From contig JAHJUE010000001.1 of the NCBI GenBank assembly GCA_018829205.1, positions 1-64,000 on the forward strand: a stretch of 64,000 nt of DNA, written 5' to 3'. Below are positions 2,024-10,626 of this stretch, in pieces; within the stretch, counting starts at the first letter, position 1; every line of letters starts with the position of its first letter. A program made the position numbers and the translations under genes. The notes beneath the pieces are model-generated. The model saw only the letters and a list, made by a program, of their open reading frames with translations, had not been told where the DNA came from and did no database searches. The stretch comes from Bacteroidota bacterium (GTDB lineage Bacteria; Bacteroidota; Ignavibacteria; Ignavibacteriales; Melioribacteraceae).

Positions 2024-4843
2024 ATGAATAACAAACAAAACAGAAGAGATTTTTTAAAGAAGGCTGGTGTTGGTTCCTTGGGAATTATGTTGTCAGGTAA
2101 TTTGCTCTCTTTAAAAGCTTTTAGCCCAGTGATGGACGAAATGAAAAGCTATGATTATAAGGGTTGGGAAAACTTTTACCGCGACATGTGGAAATGGGAT
2201 AAAGTTACTCGAGGTACACATCTTCTTAATTGTACGGGTTCATGTCCTCATTTCGTTTACTCAAAGGATGGAGTGATAATCAGAGAAGAACAGTCCGGTG
2301 ATATGCCTCATTTAACAACAGTTCCTGAAAACAACCCTAGAGGATGCAATAAAGGCGCTTGTGCTGTAGATTACGTATATGGCCCCCATAGAGTAAAATA
2401 TCCTCTAATGAGAGTTGGAGAAAGAGGTGAAGGAAAATGGAAACGAATTAGTTGGGATGACGCTCTTACTAAAATTGCTGAAAAATGCTTGGATGAAGTT
2501 CAGAAAAATGGACCTGATACTGTAAGTGTATATTCACCTGTTCCGGCAGTATCTCCTGTTTCATTTTCTGCCGGACATAGATTCGCACATTTTTTTGGTG
2601 GACACACTTATACTTTTTTTGATTGGTACAGCGATCATCCAGCCGGACTTACAATGACAACAGGTTTACAAGGTGATATGGCTGAAACTTCTGATTTTTA
2701 TAATGCGAAGTATATCATCTTCTGGGGATCGAATTTTAATACTACCCGTATCCCTGACGCTCACTATGCTCAAGAAGCAAGATATAATGGAGCGAAAATT
2801 GTTAATATCTCTCCGGAATATAGTTCAACCTCTATACATGCGGATATTTGGGTCCATCCCAAACCTGGAACTGACGCTGCAATTGCATTAGCGATGGCAA
2901 ACGTTATTATTCGTGAAAAACTATATAAAGAAGACTATTTAAAAGAACAAACTGACATGCCAATGTTAGTAAGAACAGATAACAATAAATTTTTACGCGA
3001 AGCTGATATTCTTGACGGCGGAAGCGATGCAAAATTTTATACATGGGATACTAAATCAAAAATGCCAGTATTAATGAAGGGTTGCTGGGGTGAAGAGCCT
3101 GAGAAAAAAGCCCCTATTCAACCTGGTTTTATGGGAAGAAATACATTTACATTTCCCAATGGCACTTTAGATTTGGGCATGGTTGATCCTGCTCTTGAGG
3201 GAATTTTTGAAGTTGAGCTTAAAGACGGAAAGAAGATTAAGGTACGCCCTGTTTTCGAAATATTCAAAAAAATTATAGAAAATGACTACACTCCTGAAAA
3301 GGCTTCCAAAATCTCCGGAGTAAGCGCAAAAACTATTATAAATATGGCAAAAGATTATGCCACATTGTCCCCTGCCATGATTGTAACAGGCGGCGGAACA
3401 AATCATTGGTATTATTCAGATCAAATTTTCAGAGCGTTTTTGTTTGTAAATGCTCTTACTGGCAATACTGGAAAACAAGGCGGTGGTGTTAACCACTATG
3501 TTGGTGAATGGAAAATTACGCCCTTAATTGGCATGGCAAAACTTGCGTTTCCGAAATCTCCAAAGAAACACAGATTTGTAAATACTGCAATGTGGGTATA
3601 CAAACACGCGGAAATATACGAAGAACTAGCTGGAGAAAACCCTGATGCAAATAAATATTTTGATATGGCTTTATCTGAGAAAAACTATCCTATGTATCCA
3701 AGGAACGGTAAAGATCCTAAAGTATTTATTTGTTATAGAGGTAACTGGTTAAACAATGCAAAGGGGCTTCAGAATTGTATTGATAAGTTATGGCCGAAGT
3801 TAGATTTAATTGTAACGCTAAATTTTAGAATGGATTCGCAGGCTTTATACTCAGATATAGTATTACCAGCGGCACATTGGTATGAAAAACTTGATCTTAA
3901 TATGACAGGCGAACATTCTTTTATCCAGGTTACAGAACCCGCTATTACCCCAGTAGGTGAAGCTAAATCCGATTGGGAAATATTCATGATGCTTTCAAAG
4001 AAAATTTCAGAAGTATCAAAAAAACGCGGTGGTGTTAAATATAATGATAAACAATTTGATTGGGACAGGGCATATTGCAATTTTTATAATGATTTTGTTG
4101 ATAATGGCAATCTAGATAACGATGAAAAGGCTTGTAAATTTATTTTGGCAAACGCTCCACATACACAGGGAATAACCCTTGAACAATTGAGACGTTTCGG
4201 ACCGCAAAGATTCAAACAAAATTGGACTTCTAAAATGGAAGATAATGTTCCTTATAGTCCTTTTAAAAACTTTGTTGAACTAAAAAAACCTTACCCGACA
4301 ATGGTTGGAAGACAACAATATTATATTGACCATGATTGGTTCTTAGAGTTAGGAGAAGAATTACCAAAATTTAAAGCGCCTTTAGAGTTGGATGAATATC
4401 CTCTCAGTTTTAATACTCTCCATGGTAGACACGGAATTCATTCAACCTGGAAAGATAATATTTTAATGTTACGTTTACACAGAGGCGGTCCCTTGATTAC
4501 GATGTCGCCAAAAGATGCAGCTGACAGAAATCTTGAGGATAATGATGTAATAAAAGCATTTAACAAACATGGAAATTTTATATGCAGGGTTAAAATTGTG
4601 CCCGGAGCCCAAAATGGACATGTAAACGCTTTTTGTTTGTCTGAACTCTATACAAACGCTGTTGGCAATTCACAAAGCCCGCTTCCTGTTAGAATGAATC
4701 CAACTGCCTTAGCTGGTGGATATGGGCAATTTGTTTTTAAACCAAATTATTATGGCCCCGCTGGACATAATCGTGACGTTAGAGTAGAAGTTGTTAAATA
4801 CAACGGTAAATTAAATGATAGACTCGACAAAATGAAAATGTAA
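2024..4843 (+). CDS. Tat-exported NarG-like molybdopterin oxidoreductase, catalytic subunit (type II DMSO reductase family)
   Basis: 939 residues. The N-terminus holds a twin-arginine signal (NRRDFLKKAG), so the folded enzyme should be periplasmic. Cluster-binding residues H66-x3-C70-x3-C74-x33-C108 match the FS0 site of NarG-type enzymes, where His replaces the first Cys. The FDWYSD segment at residues 199-204 carries the Asp that ligates molybdenum in this family. The C-terminal molybdopterin-dinucleotide domain begins near residue 790. The length fits periplasmic members such as perchlorate, selenate or chlorate reductases and ethylbenzene dehydrogenase (about 910-980) better than cytoplasmic NarG (about 1,250). 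The substrate cannot be decided; NarG-like motifs around the Asp make an oxyanion likely. An AGGAG Shine-Dalgarno sequence precedes the ATG. Confidence 0.92.
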   Translation: MNNKQNRRDFLKKAGVGSLGIMLSGNLLSLKAFSPVMDEMKSYDYKGWENFYRDMWKWDKVTRGTHLLNCTGSCPHFVYSKDGVIIREEQSGDMPHLTTVPENNPRGCNKGACAVDYVYGPHRVKYPLMRVGERGEGKWKRISWDDALTKIAEKCLDEVQKNGPDTVSVYSPVPAVSPVSFSAGHRFAHFFGGHTYTFFDWYSDHPAGLTMTTGLQGDMAETSDFYNAKYIIFWGSNFNTTRIPDAHYAQEARYNGAKIVNISPEYSSTSIHADIWVHPKPGTDAAIALAMANVIIREKLYKEDYLKEQTDMPMLVRTDNNKFLREADILDGGSDAKFYTWDTKSKMPVLMKGCWGEEPEKKAPIQPGFMGRNTFTFPNGTLDLGMVDPALEGIFEVELKDGKKIKVRPVFEIFKKIIENDYTPEKASKISGVSAKTIINMAKDYATLSPAMIVTGGGTNHWYYSDQIFRAFLFVNALTGNTGKQGGGVNHYVGEWKITPLIGMAKLAFPKSPKKHRFVNTAMWVYKHAEIYEELAGENPDANKYFDMALSEKNYPMYPRNGKDPKVFICYRGNWLNNAKGLQNCIDKLWPKLDLIVTLNFRMDSQALYSDIVLPAAHWYEKLDLNMTGEHSFIQVTEPAITPVGEAKSDWEIFMMLSKKISEVSKKRGGVKYNDKQFDWDRAYCNFYNDFVDNGNLDNDEKACKFILANAPHTQGITLEQLRRFGPQRFKQNWTSKMEDNVPYSPFKNFVELKKPYPTMVGRQQYYIDHDWFLELGEELPKFKAPLELDEYPLSFNTLHGRHGIHSTWKDNILMLRLHRGGPLITMSPKDAADRNLEDNDVIKAFNKHGNFICRVKIVPGAQNGHVNAFCLSELYTNAVGNSQSPLPVRMNPTALAGGYGQFVFKPNYYGPAGHNRDVRVEVVKYNGKLNDRLDKMKM

Positions 4844-4907: not shown

Positions 4908-5915
4908 ATGGGACAAACAAAAAATAGTGAATTGAAGCGAATGCAACCAGATAAACAAATTGCATTTGTAACAGATTTAAATAAATGTATTGGCTGTCAA
5001 ACTTGTACTGTTGCATGCAAAAAAATGTGGACAAGTGGTGATGGACAAGATTTCGAGTATTGGATGAATGTTGAAACACACCCCGGAAAAGGATATCCTA
5101 AAGATTGGCAGAAAAAAGGCGGTGGGTTTAAAGACGGAAAATTGCAGATCGGACTTTTGCCGACTTTAGAAGATTACGGTATTCCTTTTCAATTTGATTA
5201 TACCGGCAGATTATTCGAGGGTAAACCTGGGCCAGTTACCCCTTCTCCTGAAGCAAAATGGGGACCAAACTGGGATGAAGATACTGGAGCTGGAATGTAT
5301 CCGAACACTTATTATTTTTATCTCCCAAGAATGTGTAACCATTGCACTGATCCTGCTTGTTTAACCGCTTGTCCATCTGTGGCCATATACAAAAGAAAAG
5401 AAGACGGAATTGTTGTTGTTAATCAAGATCTTTGTTCTGGTCAGCTCGAGTGCGTTAAGGCATGTCCATACGGGGCAATATTTTTCAATCCAACAACTAA
5501 AGTGGCCGAAAAATGTATAGGATGTTTTCCAATGCTGGAAAAAGGAAAAGCCCCGATATGCGTGGGCAGCTGCGTTGGAAGAGCAAGATTTGTTGGATAT
5601 CTTGATGATATGAACAGTGCAGTTGGTAAACTAATTCATAAATGGAAAGTTGCTTTACCTTTGCATAGTGAATTTGGCACGCAACCCAACGAGTATTTTA
5701 TTCCACCTGTAAGCCCTTACAAAGAATCTAAAGAAGGAGAAATTACTTCGGAAAGAAGAATCCCCGATTCGCTACTTAAAGAAATGTTCGGCCCAAGAGC
5801 CATTGAAGTACTCGACATTATAGAAATGGAAAGAGAAAAACGGCGCAAAGGTCAACGTTCAGAATTGATGGATTTACTTATTGCACATACAAACAGAGAA
5901 ATGATTAGCATCTAG
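4908..5915 (+). CDS. Four-cluster iron-sulphur beta subunit of the molybdenum enzyme (NarH/DdhB-like)
   Basis: 335 residues with four ferredoxin-type cysteine groups: C27-C30-C33-C37, then MCNHCTDPACLTACP, then C176/C182/C186, then CIGCFPMLEKGKAPICVGSC. This is the NarH/DdhB/EbdB beta-subunit layout, wiring the catalytic subunit to an electron partner. In the third group the position that is Trp in NarH and Cys in an ordinary 4Fe-4S motif is Gln179, so that cluster is likely 3Fe-4S as in NarH, or unusual. There is no signal peptide; such subunits are exported together with the Tat-tagged alpha subunit. No haem b gamma subunit follows, so electrons probably pass to the cytochrome c encoded upstream. 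Confidence 0.92.
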   Translation: MGQTKNSELKRMQPDKQIAFVTDLNKCIGCQTCTVACKKMWTSGDGQDFEYWMNVETHPGKGYPKDWQKKGGGFKDGKLQIGLLPTLEDYGIPFQFDYTGRLFEGKPGPVTPSPEAKWGPNWDEDTGAGMYPNTYYFYLPRMCNHCTDPACLTACPSVAIYKRKEDGIVVVNQDLCSGQLECVKACPYGAIFFNPTTKVAEKCIGCFPMLEKGKAPICVGSCVGRARFVGYLDDMNSAVGKLIHKWKVALPLHSEFGTQPNEYFIPPVSPYKESKEGEITSERRIPDSLLKEMFGPRAIEVLDIIEMEREKRRKGQRSELMDLLIAHTNREMISI

Positions 5916-5997: not shown

Positions 5998-6645
5998 ATG
6001 ACAGATTTACAAGATGTTTTAAGGGGAAAATTTGAATTATATAGACTGTTGTCATTTGGTTTTTACTATCCATCAATCAAATTTTATAATGATTTAAAAG
6101 AAAAATCATACTATACATCTATTCAAGAATCTATTGAAAAAATTCAAATCAAAACTGAAAATTCTGATGATTTATATAAAATACTTACTTTAGATGGCAT
6201 TTCTTTCGAAGAATATGAATCGCAATTTATTCTTGATTTCGAAACAAACATGCCTCGTCCAAGTTGTTCCTTGCATGAACGACACTATTTAAAAACAACT
6301 AATCACGCTCAAACTCTGCTTGAATTAAAAGCTTTTTATAAAAATTTTGAACTATCAAAATCTGATGATTTTGATAGTATGGAAGACCATATAATCTTAG
6401 AACTAGAGTTTATGTATTTTATTACATTTAAAGAGTTACAGGCTATTCAAAACCGTCTCGATGACCAACCTTATAAAAAGTGTAAAAAGGACTTTCTAGA
6501 AAGACATTTAAAAAATTGGATACCAGAAATTGTTTCTAAAGCAAAGAAAAATGTCAAATCAAAATTTCACCGCAGTCTTTTGGAAATTACTTTAGAGCTT
6601 GTAGAAAATGATTTTTCTGAATCATTAAAATTTAATACTAATTAA
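5998..6645 (+). CDS. TorD/NarJ-like molybdoenzyme maturation chaperone
   Basis: 215 residues, predicted all-helical, with no signal peptide. The segment YESQFILDFETNMPRPSC, then LHERHYL, then a DDFDSMEDHIILELEFM segment follow the TorD/DmsD/NarJ pattern (a Y/E-x-x-F..P stretch followed by a D-H-I-x-x-E-L-E-F-M motif). Such chaperones bind the Tat signal of the catalytic subunit and hold it until cofactor insertion. The position directly after the alpha and beta genes supports this. AAGGA lies about 10 bases upstream of the ATG. The client is almost certainly the 939-residue alpha subunit. Confidence 0.8.
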   Translation: MTDLQDVLRGKFELYRLLSFGFYYPSIKFYNDLKEKSYYTSIQESIEKIQIKTENSDDLYKILTLDGISFEEYESQFILDFETNMPRPSCSLHERHYLKTTNHAQTLLELKAFYKNFELSKSDDFDSMEDHIILELEFMYFITFKELQAIQNRLDDQPYKKCKKDFLERHLKNWIPEIVSKAKKNVKSKFHRSLLEITLELVENDFSESLKFNTN

Positions 6646-6655
6646 AGGCAAACAA

Positions 6656-6847
6656 ATGTTTGGAACATTAGGTTTTACAGAAATACTGCTTATTGTAATT
6701 GCAATTATTGTCTTATTCGGGGCAAAGAAAATACCTGAATTTGCCAAAGGTATTGGCAGTGGAATCAAAGAGTTTAGAAATTCAATTAAAGATATTGAAA
6801 AGGATATCAATCTTGAAGATTCTAAACTAAAAAATATTTTAAAGTAA
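6656..6847 (+). CDS. tatA: TatA/E-type twin-arginine translocase protein
   Basis: 63 residues with the standard TatA plan: one short membrane helix (about residues 5-20), the FG hinge (F21-G22), then an amphipathic helix beginning KKIPEFAKGIGSGIKEF and a charged tail. TatA forms the pore-like part of the Tat system that exports folded cofactor-containing proteins. It lies 10 bases after the chaperone gene, so the cluster appears to bring its own export component for the Tat-tagged molybdenum enzyme. TatB is possible, but the short length and the IPE..KGIGSGI segment favour TatA. No tatC is in the window. Confidence 0.88.
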   Translation: MFGTLGFTEILLIVIAIIVLFGAKKIPEFAKGIGSGIKEFRNSIKDIEKDINLEDSKLKNILK

Positions 6848-6860
6848 TTTAAATATATAG

Positions 6861-6985
6861 TCGTCTCCGAGCTTATTGTTTAAGAGCAAACAACTATTAA
6901 CTCTAAGCCGAAAGGGTTTAATAAGAAATTATTATACCTCCCGAATCCTTAGTACAAAGGATGAATTGGAAAGGAGAAAAGGTAA
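6861..6985 (+). promoter_or_regulatory. Structured RNA leader resembling the Moco riboswitch aptamer
   Basis: Elements in order: TCTCC (6864-6868), a hairpin TTGTTT/AAACAA (6876-6893), GCCGAAAGG (6907-6915), ACCTCCCGAATCC (6936-6948), a hairpin closing with GGAT, then GGAAAGGAGA (6968-6977). TCTCC can pair with GGAGA (6973-6977) to close the domain. From memory, the CCTCCCG and GGAAAGG pair of elements is shared with the Escherichia coli moaA leader, the classic Moco riboswitch. TTAGAGTTA (6992-7000) is complementary over 9 bases to 6898-6906 inside the domain, giving an alternative fold before the terminator. No TPP, FMN, SAM or cobalamin box motif was seen. The ligand (molybdenum or tungsten cofactor) is inferred. 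Confidence 0.58.
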
Positions 6986-7017
6986 TTGTTGTTAGAGTTA
7001 TAGGCTTTAACAAACTT

Positions 7018-7046
7018 AAACCTCATCTCCGGATGAGGTTTTTTTG
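7018..7046 (+). terminator. Intrinsic terminator of the leader (attenuator)
   Basis: A perfect 10-base-pair stem, AAACCTCATC (7018-7027) with GATGAGGTTT (7032-7041), has a TCCG loop and a T run to 7045. It sits 28 bases before the ATG of the next gene and directly after the structured leader, so it is the natural expression platform. It also ends any read-through from tatA. Confidence 0.85.
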
Positions 7047-7073
7047 TTTGAAAAAGATTGTTGGCAAAAGAAA

Positions 7074-7679
7074 ATGATAAAACTCTTAAAAATAGAAAAA
7101 TTGTCTGAAGGCAATCTTGTAAATACCTCGGTATTTGGGGCTATCTGGGGACTCGCTGAAGTTTCGCTCGGATCGTTTCTGCACGCATCAAAGATTCCTT
7201 TCAGAGGGGCAATTATGTCTTTGGTTGCGGTCTTAATTTTGATTAGCGCAAGATCGGTTTTAAAATACAAAGGCTCCTTGATTTTACTTGGAGTAGTGAC
7301 GGCTACCTTTCGTCTCTTCCTCGGAGTAGGTTTTAATATCACTCCTTTTATTGCGATTTTCATGGAAGCACTAATAGCAGAGATTATAATTAACAGAATA
7401 GGATTTAATCGCTGGACATCAGTTCTTTCAGGAATATTGATTATGGTTTATTCGCTTTCGCACGGATTAATAATGCAGGCACTATTCTTAGGTGCCGATA
7501 TTTACAAGGTTTATTACGAGATGATTTTAAAAGTTACAAATATGATAAGCCTGCCCGAGAATGTCGTATTAGCCATCATTTTCTCGATCCCATTTCTCTA
7601 TATATTCATGGGGGCTATTGCGGGTTCTTTCGGATGGTCTGTAGGTAAACAAATTCAATTATTGATGGAGAAAGAATAA
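7074..7679 (+). CDS. Six-helix membrane protein, ECF-transporter S-component-like
   Basis: 201 residues from ATG 7074. An in-frame TTG at 7044 lies inside the terminator T run and is rejected as the start. About five to six hydrophobic helices are visible, with a GAIWGLAEVSLG segment early in the chain. Size and topology resemble substrate-binding S components of energy-coupling-factor transporters; I did not recognise a named family, so the call rests on pattern and context. It is the first gene after the riboswitch-like leader and overlaps the next gene by one base (TAATG). Proposed role: inner-membrane binding of the substrate that the TonB receptor of the same operon brings into the periplasm. 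Confidence 0.6.
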   Translation: MIKLLKIEKLSEGNLVNTSVFGAIWGLAEVSLGSFLHASKIPFRGAIMSLVAVLILISARSVLKYKGSLILLGVVTATFRLFLGVGFNITPFIAIFMEALIAEIIINRIGFNRWTSVLSGILIMVYSLSHGLIMQALFLGADIYKVYYEMILKVTNMISLPENVVLAIIFSIPFLYIFMGAIAGSFGWSVGKQIQLLMEKE

Positions 7680-8236
7680 TGAAATTTTTAATCCCGGTGA
7701 TTATTCTTACGGTGATAATACTTCCATCGGAATATGTTATTCCGTTTGGAATTGTTGTAATGATTGGTTATGCAATGATTGATTCTTCGCAACTTCATTT
7801 ATTTAAAAGAAAATCGCTTTATACTCTTTTCACGATTGTTGTGATAATTCAACCTATGATTTTAGGAAGCCCAACGAGCGAAGTATTTGGCGTTTCGTTT
7901 TCTGCCGAAGCATTGGTTCGCGGATTTGCTATGTTCATTAGAGCTCTGGTGATTATTTCATCGATTACGTACTTAAACCGAAACACAGAAAAAGAAAAAG
8001 TAAAAGAATTTTGGAAACGGCAAGGTATGGAAAATTTTGATGTTGTATTGGCAAAAGCTCAAGAAGTTTTACCGACGATAAAAATATCTTTTTCCGATTC
8101 AATTAAAGCTGTTAAAAAAGAAGGCACAGGAAAATCTTGGCTCAGAAGTCCGGCTGAATTACTTGCCAGATTAGTTGTACCCTTATTACATAAATCGAAT
8201 ACTGTTATTCCAGAAAAAAAAATTAAAGAGGCATGA
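7679..8236 (+). CDS. Short ECF-transporter T-component-like (CbiQ/EcfT-like) membrane protein
   Basis: 185 residues with about four membrane segments in the first 100 residues and a soluble, charged helical C-terminal part. The order (SAEALVRGFAMFIRALVIIS, then a LNRNTEKEKVKEFW helix, then AQEVLPTIKISFSDSIKA) follows the layout of EcfT/CbiQ proteins, where the cytoplasmic coupling helices contact the ATPases. It is shorter than typical EcfT (about 250), and I do not see the usual Ala-Arg-Gly coupling motifs, so it may be a divergent relative. It is translationally coupled to the preceding S-like gene and is followed one base later by the receptor gene. Confidence 0.5.
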   Translation: MKFLIPVIILTVIILPSEYVIPFGIVVMIGYAMIDSSQLHLFKRKSLYTLFTIVVIIQPMILGSPTSEVFGVSFSAEALVRGFAMFIRALVIISSITYLNRNTEKEKVKEFWKRQGMENFDVVLAKAQEVLPTIKISFSDSIKAVKKEGTGKSWLRSPAELLARLVVPLLHKSNTVIPEKKIKEA

Positions 8237-8237
8237 A

Positions 8238-10169
8238 ATGAAAAAGGTATTACTTTTTATAATAGCAACTGCAGTCCTTATTCATGCACAGGACACACTG
8301 AAGAATTATAACTTAGGTGAAATAGTTGTTACATCGGAGCAAAGCAACTTGGTAAAATCTTCATCAGTAATTGATATAAATAAAAATATGATCAATCAAA
8401 CAGATGGATATGATATTACCGAATCCTTAAAGTTTTACCCCGGTATATATATAACAAACACATCGAAAAATGAATCCAAAATATATATGCGGGGATATGA
8501 CCAAAGGCAAATAACCGTATTTCTAGACGGTGTTCCAATTTATGAACCATATTCCGGTTTAGTTGATCTAAGTAATCTGCCTAAAAACTCATTCGAAAAA
8601 ATAACTGTGTCTAGGGGAATGCCTTCTCTTGCATACGGTGCTAATTCTATGGGTGGAACCATAAACTTTATTACAAAAGACAGAATGGATAATAATGTTA
8701 CATTAAAAATTGAATCCGGCGCTCGACATTCAACTTCGGCTGGAGTTTACGGAGCTATCAACAAACTTTTCTATCAAGTTAATGCAGGTTATTCAAAATC
8801 AAACGGATTCCAAATTGCCGAGTCTCCGAATAGTTTCAAAAATGAGGACGGTGGAACACGGAATAACAGCGATTATAAAAACATCGGCGGAATGTTAAAA
8901 ATTGGTGTTAGCGATTTTTACAATATCGACCTCGCTTATTCAATAATGATTGTTAATAACGAAAAGGGTGTACCGACAGATGCTTATACCAGTCGACCGC
9001 GATATTGGCGTTATACAGAATGGAACAAGTCAATTAACAATTTAATGTTCAGTACCGGCATGGGATCATCACTTCGCGTTAAAGGAAACGTTTATTATGA
9101 AACTTACAAAAACGTTCTCGATTCATATGATAACGATACTTTTTCAACCCAGGATATGAAGTATGCATTTCGTTCAACTTACGACGATCACTCCTTCGGT
9201 ATTAATTTGCTTAGTGATCTTAAAGTGGTTGACTTGGGAATAACACGATTATCGTTTTCTTTGCGGAAGGATGTACACAAAGAGGAAGGTAATTTTAATC
9301 AAGGTTTCTCAAGTTACGAAGCGTCTCTGCTGAGTACTGGGTTAGAGCAGGATGTGAATATAACAGACAAGTTTTCTGCTGTACTTGGGATTGGCCTTGA
9401 TCGTCTTACCCCAATTTATGCCGACGGCAATAATCTTCGCGAAAATAGTTCGTCGGTTAATGCTTTTGCCGGATTGAGCTATAAAGTTAATCAAGATTTA
9501 TCTCTTCATATTAATGCCTCGAAGAAGAGCCGTTTCCCAACTTTGAAAGAGTTTTACAGTGAAACAGCCGGAAGAGATGTAGCAAATCCCGATTTAAACG
9601 TTGAACAAAGTATCGGCGGTGAATTTGGAATAGATTATAAAGTAAATAACGGCATTTTATTAAACAGCAACATTTTCTACAGTTCTATTGACGAATTAAT
9701 CAATCTCGGAATTTTAGATGATGGTTTAAGACAATATCAAAATATAGGTAAAGCTGTTATGAAAGGGGCGGAGTTTGGATTAAGTTTTAACATAGATGAC
9801 TTTTATATGAATTTCGCTTACACATATCTTTCGGCAAACAACGTTTCGGATGACGCACAAAGCGAGATATTAGAATATCGTCCCAAACAAGTGTTGTCAC
9901 TTGTTCCAAATTATCAATTCAGTTTTGGAGCTGAACTTCGTGCTGAGCTTTTTTTCGTTGGAGGCAAATACGGGGTAAATGCCGATTCGAGGGAATTTGT
10001 TAAAATGGATAATTACTTAGTCGCAAATATAAGAGCATCACATACACTTTTTGATAATTACACTTTGTTTTTCCGTGTTAATAATATTGGCAATATTTAT
10101 TATGAAACAGAATATGGTTTTCCGCAGCCAGGAAGAGAATTGTTTTTTGGGGTAAACTGTGAGTGGTAA
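8238..10169 (+). CDS. TonB-dependent outer-membrane receptor (BtuB-sized)
   Basis: 643 residues from ATG 8238; an earlier in-frame ATG at 8175 lies inside the preceding gene and would hide the signal peptide MKKVLLFIIATAVLIHAQ. A TonB-box-like region (LGEIVVTSEQ) is followed by a plug domain (residues about 30-150, with IYMRGYDQRQITVFLDG and SMGGTINFIT) and a 22-strand-type barrel ending PGRELFFGVNCEW. Such receptors import scarce, large ligands using TonB energy. The length is near that of BtuB (about 600). Its location in a riboswitch-led operon with S/T-like proteins suggests a specific cofactor or metal complex as ligand. Its last codons overlap the next gene by 11 bases. Confidence 0.92.
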   Translation: MKKVLLFIIATAVLIHAQDTLKNYNLGEIVVTSEQSNLVKSSSVIDINKNMINQTDGYDITESLKFYPGIYITNTSKNESKIYMRGYDQRQITVFLDGVPIYEPYSGLVDLSNLPKNSFEKITVSRGMPSLAYGANSMGGTINFITKDRMDNNVTLKIESGARHSTSAGVYGAINKLFYQVNAGYSKSNGFQIAESPNSFKNEDGGTRNNSDYKNIGGMLKIGVSDFYNIDLAYSIMIVNNEKGVPTDAYTSRPRYWRYTEWNKSINNLMFSTGMGSSLRVKGNVYYETYKNVLDSYDNDTFSTQDMKYAFRSTYDDHSFGINLLSDLKVVDLGITRLSFSLRKDVHKEEGNFNQGFSSYEASLLSTGLEQDVNITDKFSAVLGIGLDRLTPIYADGNNLRENSSSVNAFAGLSYKVNQDLSLHINASKKSRFPTLKEFYSETAGRDVANPDLNVEQSIGGEFGIDYKVNNGILLNSNIFYSSIDELINLGILDDGLRQYQNIGKAVMKGAEFGLSFNIDDFYMNFAYTYLSANNVSDDAQSEILEYRPKQVLSLVPNYQFSFGAELRAELFFVGGKYGVNADSREFVKMDNYLVANIRASHTLFDNYTLFFRVNNIGNIYYETEYGFPQPGRELFFGVNCEW

Positions 10170-10626
10170 GCAACTGAAAATTGAAATTATTTCCGGTGAG
10201 GTAAACTCCGGCAAAACCACAAGATTAATTCAAAAAATTAATGAGCTCAATAAACAAAACTACAGGATTGGTGGATTTATCTCACATTCTATTTATATGG
10301 GTAATACTAAATCAGGATATATGGTACAAGATTTATCAGAAAATAATTTTTATCACCTTATCCATAATCAGCAGTCAGAAATATTTACAATCAAACAAGG
10401 AAGATTTTTCTTCAATGAAAACTTATTCAAAGAACTTAACCTAAGAATTAAATTATTATTGGATTATGATTATTTGGTTATTGATGAAATTGGTCCGCTT
10501 GAGCTTAATAACAAAGGATTTTATGATGGTTTGATTTATTTATTAAATAATTATAAAAATAACCTGATATTAATTACGCGAAATAAATTGTTGATGGATG
10601 TAAAAAACCGCTTTGTTAAATTTTAA
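10159..10626 (+). CDS. THEP1-type (NTPase_1) P-loop nucleoside triphosphatase
   Basis: 155 residues, starting at GTG 10159 inside the receptor gene. Walker A is GEVNSGKTT (residues 13-21) and Walker B VIDEIGPLEL contains D109-E110; the DEIGPLEL sequence is characteristic of the THEP1 family. The family usually has 170-190 residues, so this copy is slightly short at the C-terminus. THEP1 proteins hydrolyse NTPs in vitro, but their role is poorly defined. Here it closes a transporter-like operon lacking an ordinary ABC ATPase. Either it energises or regulates the membrane components, or it handles the imported ligand; both are inference. Confidence 0.85.
   Translation: MSGKQLKIEIISGEVNSGKTTRLIQKINELNKQNYRIGGFISHSIYMGNTKSGYMVQDLSENNFYHLIHNQQSEIFTIKQGRFFFNENLFKELNLRIKLLLDYDYLVIDEIGPLELNNKGFYDGLIYLLNNYKNNLILITRNKLLMDVKNRFVKF

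Follow-up and report, generated by a model that had tools for sequence, protein, structure and literature searches.

An operon with a Moco riboswitch, ECF-like S and T proteins, a TonB-dependent receptor and a THEP1 NTPase: a probable importer of finished molybdenum cofactor

The molybdenum cofactor (Moco) is generally treated as a compound that is made by the cell that uses it. The window analysed here, i.e., the whole 64,000-nucleotide stretch of contig JAHJUE010000001.1 from a bacterium of the class Ignavibacteria (assembly GCA_018829205.1; genome G000, 99.95% complete), raises the question of what is carried by an uptake-type operon that stands behind a Moco riboswitch in a genome in which the synthesis enzymes MoaA, MoaC and MoeA were not found. 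The operon (6853–10626, + strand) consists of an aptamer, a terminator and then four coupled genes, for a substrate-binding membrane component (S), a membrane protein like the T coupling component of energy-coupling factor (ECF) transporters (T), a TonB-dependent receptor and a THEP1-family NTPase. Its most probable function is to bring finished molybdenum (or tungsten) cofactor into the cell, across the whole envelope.

A covariance-model search matched the Moco/tungsten cofactor (Tuco) riboswitch RF01055 to 6853–6992 (+), scoring 53.1 bits where the gathering threshold is 36 (E 7.2e-10 in the 64 kb window). This was the sole gathering-level RNA match across the window, and at a permissive threshold all other RNA families were far under their own cut-offs. 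Thus, the initial annotation, which had been made from the letters of the DNA, was right in its Moco-type leader, and the other riboswitch class (e.g. cobalamin) that it had named as refuting was not seen. Further downstream lies a terminator-like hairpin with a T run (7018–7041, +), the presumed expression platform, with a stem of 10 pairs ahead of the S start at 7074; the fold of 7005–7050 has an energy of -18.6 kcal/mol. In a search for an antiterminator, the predicted fold of 6853–7010 disrupted P1, but it did not prove any single switch. The genes follow on the + strand as S (7074–7679, 201 residues), T (7679–8236, 185 residues), the receptor (8238–10169) and THEP1 (10159–10626, 155 residues, GTG start), with one shared base at the S/T junction, a one-base gap between T and the receptor, and an 11-base overlap between the receptor and THEP1. 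Coordinates and stem thereby bear out the structured leader, the terminator and the four tight genes described earlier.

The linkage between riboswitch and transporter extends beyond the window. RF01055 occurs at E ≤ 0.001 in 14 of 38 relatives, above the cut-off in 13. Among these 14, it precedes S, T and receptor genes in five (the window's own genome, G002, G011, G027 and G033) and a moaA-bearing operon in the remaining nine, plus at a second site in G027; all 10 such loci have MoaA. In an even sample of the larger group, which forms our class set, the S family was found in 113 of 391 genomes (at most eight first-look candidates were scored per genome, so the count may be somewhat too low), 14 of them at E ≤ 1.5e-38, here called close S. 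RF01055 lies just upstream of S in 13 of these 14 genomes, in locus L087 ahead of a carboxymuconolactone-decarboxylase-family gene and S; G283 is the one close-S genome with no gathering-level RF01055 ahead of S. Downstream of close S, the window included, there is a T match in 12/14 (in L087 a membrane gene occupies the T place), a TonB receptor in 13/14 and THEP1 in 9/14, and MobA is in the same gene run in three (L085, L087 and L088). In a phylum sample of 395 genomes, the S family is present in 39, and 33 of these belong to this class. The uptake role under Moco control that the initial annotation had proposed is supported by the recurrence of RF01055 before close S and by the absence of pathway genes described below.

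Two further families accompany the moa operons. The gene second after RF01055 in 8 of the 10 (L032, L023–L026, L029, L033 and L034) is of the PF02417 type, a short single-domain protein of the chromate-transporter family (L032 8683–9207, 2.9e-44), and is a candidate molybdate/tungstate transporter. A carboxymuconolactone-decarboxylase-family gene (PF02627 at L032 8327–8686; by similarity at L087 9162–9491, L098 9658–9969 and L111 9739–10056) is linked to 8/10 moa operons and to S-T-THEP1 or MoeA-MobA genes.

No match to MoaA, MoaC or MoeA was found in G000, for which all first-look candidates of these families were scored; the same searches were positive in 11 of 14 known genomes and in 6/6 relatives with moa operons. 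Among the 14 close-S genomes, MoaA was not found in 12, MoaC in the same 12, and MoeA in 10, including G000. All 14 have PF01568 (molybdopterin-dinucleotide-binding domain) and a MobA-like match (E ≤ 2.4e-17); the gene of G000 encodes a MobA-like NTP transferase by Pfam, sharing 42% identity with the G027 moa-operon MobA across 200 residues. A further mobA-like gene of G027 (C15:21323–21858) is split into two short frames. Because MoaA, MoaC and MoeA were not found and a MobA-like gene is present, the finished cofactor is favoured over the other two substrates that the initial annotation had offered beside it, molybdate or tungstate and early pterin precursors.

Import of an intermediate, cyclic pyranopterin monophosphate (cPMP) or metal-free molybdopterin (MPT), is unlikely, since in the 10 of 14 close-S genomes in which MoeA was not found the metal would have to be inserted without a known enzyme. 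Import of cPMP would also need MPT synthase, and MoaE was not found in 13/14 (weak evidence, as moaA-positive genomes lack MoaE too). Metal-free molybdopterin would suit G002 and G094, which keep MoeA and MobA (L111 7934–9717; L112 7026–8833) with MoaA and MoaC not found and which, judged by gene content, could still insert the metal. Still less probable is the import of molybdate or tungstate with cofactor synthesis inside the cell. In its favour, Moco riboswitches are known ahead of molybdate transporters (PMC2408646; this and the other papers given by PMC number are cited from parts of their text), and a search for ModB, with Wtp and Tup outside its scope, gave nothing above the cut-off in G000 (best 41.2 of 182.6 bits; 3 of 38 genomes above). 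The sub-cut-off ModB matches were taken as other ABC permeases. Against it, the absence of MoaA, MoaC and MoeA matches from G000 and nine more close-S genomes leaves no known metal-inserting enzymes, and the fold of S is that of vitamin-binding ECF proteins.

The distribution of moaA fits import of the cofactor. Across 283 PF01568-positive genomes in 30 families, the S family and strong moaA are anticorrelated within families (Mantel–Haenszel odds ratio 0.081, Cochran–Mantel–Haenszel p 5e-11; stratification is by family and ignores kinship inside families). “Strong” excludes the E range 1e-12 to 1e-3, into which 12 genomes fall; counting these weak matches gives a stratified odds ratio of 0.129 (p 1.4e-8). 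Unstratified, for 282 of these genomes, strong moaA is present in 20 of 101 S-positive and 106 of 181 S-negative genomes. In the co-occurrence check suggested in the initial annotation, S-positive genomes are thus depleted in moaA, and the S family does not occur mainly in genomes without molybdoenzymes, the converse that had been named as refuting: PF01568 is present in 101/113 S-positive genomes. About 75 genomes of the class have PF01568 with neither the S family nor strong moaA.

The membrane proteins S and T gave no Pfam match above the cut-off, only sub-threshold ones. The AlphaFold model of S (mean predicted local distance difference test, pLDDT, 90.1) has six long helices and superposes on the ECF S component 5edl (Z 14.8, 166 residues aligned, root-mean-square deviation, rmsd, 3.3). 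Among the 18 structure matches listed at Z ≥ 8.0 there are 15 ECF S components, some of which we assigned from terse entry titles, two methane-monooxygenase (pMMO) subunits and one NosDFY; the pMMO subunits, at Z 12, call for caution about helical bundles. Foldseek gave no match for the model at E ≤ 0.001, yet ECF S components head its list. A profile of 30 S relatives, in which W25, E29, G45 and G140 are invariant, found nothing among solved structures by sequence up to E 10, and the fold of S therefore rests on structure comparison. The model thus supports an ECF S-component fold for S. For T, six of seven aligned family members match TIGR02454 CbiQ (best 1.8e-6) and one of seven matches PF02361; the T of the window scores 22.5 bits, with the cut-off at 111.8, and a search of the PDB by sequence gave chance matches only. 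No EcfT chain was among the VIA-align matches listed for a fused model, which carries no weight because T was folded only as part of the fusion; beyond its THEP1 part, the Foldseek matches of that model were of no use. The weak profile matches point to a putative T-like coupling protein, distantly CbiQ-like. The S/T-like membrane proteins of the initial annotation are accordingly supported, S by its modelled fold and T by its weak profile matches.

The receptor has the barrel (PF00593, 2.6e-25) and plug (PF07715, 8e-18) domains of TonB-dependent outer-membrane receptors, both above the cut-off. Its best NCBIfam and PDB matches are BtuB, and it scores 138.6 bits against the cut-off of 599.7 of the BtuB equivalog TIGR01779. 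Clustering with BtuB had been named beforehand as refuting a cofactor importer, and, judged by best matches and family score, the result is divided: the nearest solved relative is BtuB, and the score is far below the BtuB family cut-off. Carriage of an unrelated micronutrient such as a corrinoid, with the riboswitch merely coupling uptake to molybdoenzyme demand, draws on these BtuB matches, on the likeness of T to the cobalt-transporter protein CbiQ, on weak matches of five S members to the ABC_cobalt family PF09819 and on the 49 of 87 S places that have no molybdenum-related neighbour, but is the least probable of the alternatives, as the riboswitch ahead of 13 of the 14 close-S genes is RF01055 rather than a cobalamin-type one and as the links to moaA absence and to MobA fit the cofactor.

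What would energize such an importer? The THEP1 of the window matches PF03266 (3.2e-18, 66.6 bits against 23.9), and GxxxxGK and DEIGPLEL motifs stand in the alignment; the aligned family matches 1ye8 at 2.4e-13. In relatives, THEP1 is fused to S and T in proteins of about 580 residues (PF03266 was confirmed in two, at about residues 400–567, and the others were recognized by alignment), and the THEP1 domain of such a fusion model superposes on 1ye8 (Z 17.2, 165 residues, rmsd 2.9). There are also S-T fusions of 312–405 residues, with THEP1 nearby in 24 of 39. There is no ABC-type A component within the operon, and none of 42 genomes gave a match to EcfA (TIGR04520) above the cut-off; in control searches, 3 of 14 known genomes were above it. 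The best match in G000, where 46 of 85 first-look candidates were scored, was 173.6 against 315 bits, and a divergent or shared ATPase may serve S and T. Given the lack of EcfA above the cut-off and the S-T-THEP1 fusions, THEP1 is the likeliest driving NTPase, acting as motor or gate. The THEP1 domain also weakly resembles the MobB adaptor (Z 6.8), so that it may instead help to receive the cofactor. In five of the 14 close-S genomes the operon is without an adjoining THEP1, and three of these genomes (G002, G146 and G283) have THEP1 beside a second S-T gene. In the elusimicrobial locus L020 (4941–8880), THEP1 and S stand with a double ABC ATPase and with a membrane protein where T would be expected, which argues that THEP1 does not everywhere take the place of the ATPase; the gene adjoining that cluster looks AnmK-like.

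Neighbourhoods were compared at 87 retrieved S places, a subset of all S matches, obtained from 93 rows by removing three THEP1 genes scored as S and three lone S paralogues. At no fewer than 60 of the 87, THEP1 is either fused to S or encoded nearby (the THEP1 genes of L085 and L088 were missed), 23 have a TonB receptor no farther than 1.5 kb away, and a MobA/MoeA or molybdoenzyme match lies within 8 kb in 38, a count made without a random-locus control. Examples are a nar-like operon with S-T and MobA (L116), MobA with a fusion gene and receptor (L167), receptor, S-T, THEP1 and MobA together (L195), and S-T-THEP1 amid xanthine-dehydrogenase-type genes (L149). Lone S paralogues without T occur near cytochrome and nap genes (L093 9762–10352, L081 18888–19469 and L095 8582–9274), in genomes that also have an S-T operon.

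Taking these observations together, we infer the transported substrate, the direction of transport, the role of THEP1 and the way in which the leader switches expression as follows. The TonB receptor would carry the cofactor over the outer membrane; S would bind it, and S with T would move it through the inner membrane, with THEP1 supplying or gating the energy. A MobA-like enzyme encoded elsewhere would add guanosine monophosphate (GMP), and the resulting dinucleotide would serve the DMSO-reductase-family enzyme encoded next door. When cofactor is plentiful, it would be bound by the RF01055 aptamer, and the downstream terminator would halt transcription, thereby providing feedback. More tentatively, and with the balance tipped somewhat against it, S-T-THEP1 could be a distinct importer class in which an ECF-like S-T unit is driven by the RecA-like THEP1 in place of two ABC ATPases, the substrate of the riboswitch-linked branch being intact Mo/W cofactor. 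On that reading, many Ignavibacteria would be cofactor auxotrophs living on Moco that their neighbours release, and THEP1 would gain its first physiological role.

Several observations weigh against import of the finished cofactor. Free Moco is unstable in air, and the nearest solved relative of the receptor is, as described, BtuB. Strong moaA is present in 22/113 S-positive genomes (in family f7, in five of six), two close-S genomes (G027 and G177) have the synthesis pathway as well, and 75 of the 181 S-negative PF01568-positive genomes are without strong moaA. Taken by itself, the close-S set (13 genomes, S E < 1e-38) shows a modest association (strong moaA in 2/13 against 124/269, Fisher p 0.043; any moaA, p 0.021), because many S-negative genomes are also without moaA. 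PF01568 may also mark proteins other than Moco enzymes. The MobA matches are all under the NCBIfam cut-off, as is the moa-operon MobA of the controls. No MoaE match was found in 4 of 8 moaA-positive genomes searched (G013, G015, G027 and G031, with moaA and moaC present), for which reason MoaE was dropped as a pathway marker; another enzyme may stand in for MPT synthase there, or its sequence may have diverged far, and pathway enzymes can therefore be replaced or diverge strongly in this clade. Lastly, the 49 S places with no MobA/MoeA or molybdoenzyme match within 8 kb imply that the wider S family may have other substrates.

The candidate consumer of the cofactor is encoded directly upstream, on the same strand, and serves here as context. 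A type II DMSO-reductase-family alpha subunit (2024–4843; TIGR03479, 1172.3 bits, cut-off 984.75), whose N-terminus reads, by eye, RRDFLK, a motif like that of the twin-arginine translocation (Tat) pathway, is followed by an iron-sulfur beta subunit (4908–5915; TIGR03478 above the cut-off), a TorD-like chaperone (5998–6645; PF02613 3e-17; TIGR03482 129.4 bits, under the cut-off of 152.3) and TatA (6656–6847; PF02416 4.5e-16; TIGR01411 above the cut-off). This fits the adjoining Tat-exported molybdenum enzyme of the initial annotation. The first gene before this cluster (29–655), perhaps truncated by the window edge, encodes a multihaem cytochrome-like protein nearest to ExtM of selenite/tellurite reduction operons, below the cut-off.

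The enzyme families neighbouring these operons are usually regarded as molybdenum enzymes. In the RF01055 alignment, the P3 columns are deleted in the window aptamer and in all 13 aligned S-linked aptamers, a form that has been tied to tungsten cofactor (PMC2408646); given P3-less aptamers beside Mo-type neighbours, the cofactor metal may be either Mo or W. As a marker of synthesis versus uptake leaders, P3 was rejected: L003, L004 and L013, before moa operons, are also without it. Among the aligned moa-type leaders, L006 has P3 and L015 an insert resembling it; the alignment leaves out another five leaders of the moa type.

Our search of open-access papers for bacterial Moco transport, uptake or auxotrophy (most subscription journals were outside its scope) found no importer described, and that for THEP1 with ECF or Moco found nothing relevant. 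Some T11SS proteins have been speculated to act in cobalamin or molybdopterin uptake (PMC12282271), Moco uptake in a model was treated as unrealistic (PMC3423039), and a fungal genome is mentioned as having “molybdenum cofactor transporters” that may have come from bacteria (PMC13315312, citing another paper). PMC13119186 concerns cobalt ECF. Caenorhabditis elegans takes up dietary Moco by mechanisms stated to be unknown (PMC9793310; the nematode case is repeated in PMC11879881). A bacterial importer, if confirmed, would bear on how Moco crosses membranes, the question put in PMC9793310, and would make Moco shareable within microbial communities. It would also add cofactor uptake to the processes under Moco riboswitch control and provide THEP1 with a role that can be tested.

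How does the operon compare with known systems? BtuB and other TonB vitamin receptor systems likewise place a TonB-dependent receptor beside an inner-membrane uptake system, but here the receptor is under the BtuB cut-off, the operon has no BtuCDF-like genes, and the riboswitch is of the Moco and not the cobalamin type. With the THEP1 NTPases (Aquifex aeolicus aq_1292 and human HCR-NTPase) it shares PF03266 and a 1ye8-like domain; the A. aeolicus protein is, in contrast, a single-domain NTPase, its in vivo function stated to be unknown (PMC1079890), whereas here THEP1 is genetically tied to a transporter and, in relatives, fused to it. With the Moco/Tuco riboswitch regulons it shares the RF01055 aptamer and a terminator, but those described in the available text of PMC2408646 comprise synthesis genes, molybdate transporters and molybdoenzymes. 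The ECF vitamin transporters share with it the six-helix S component of ECF S fold, a putative T that is here distantly CbiQ-like, and control by a cofactor riboswitch (PMC3766115, in whose available text the coenzyme-uptake categories are B12, thiamin, riboflavin, queuosine and folate, with Moco absent from them); they differ in that here there is no ABC ATPase in the operon and no EcfA above the cut-off in G000, and that THEP1 and a TonB receptor stand in the operon with a new proposed substrate. The operon is best classed with the riboswitch-controlled uptake systems of ECF type, its energy module being atypical and its proposed substrate new.

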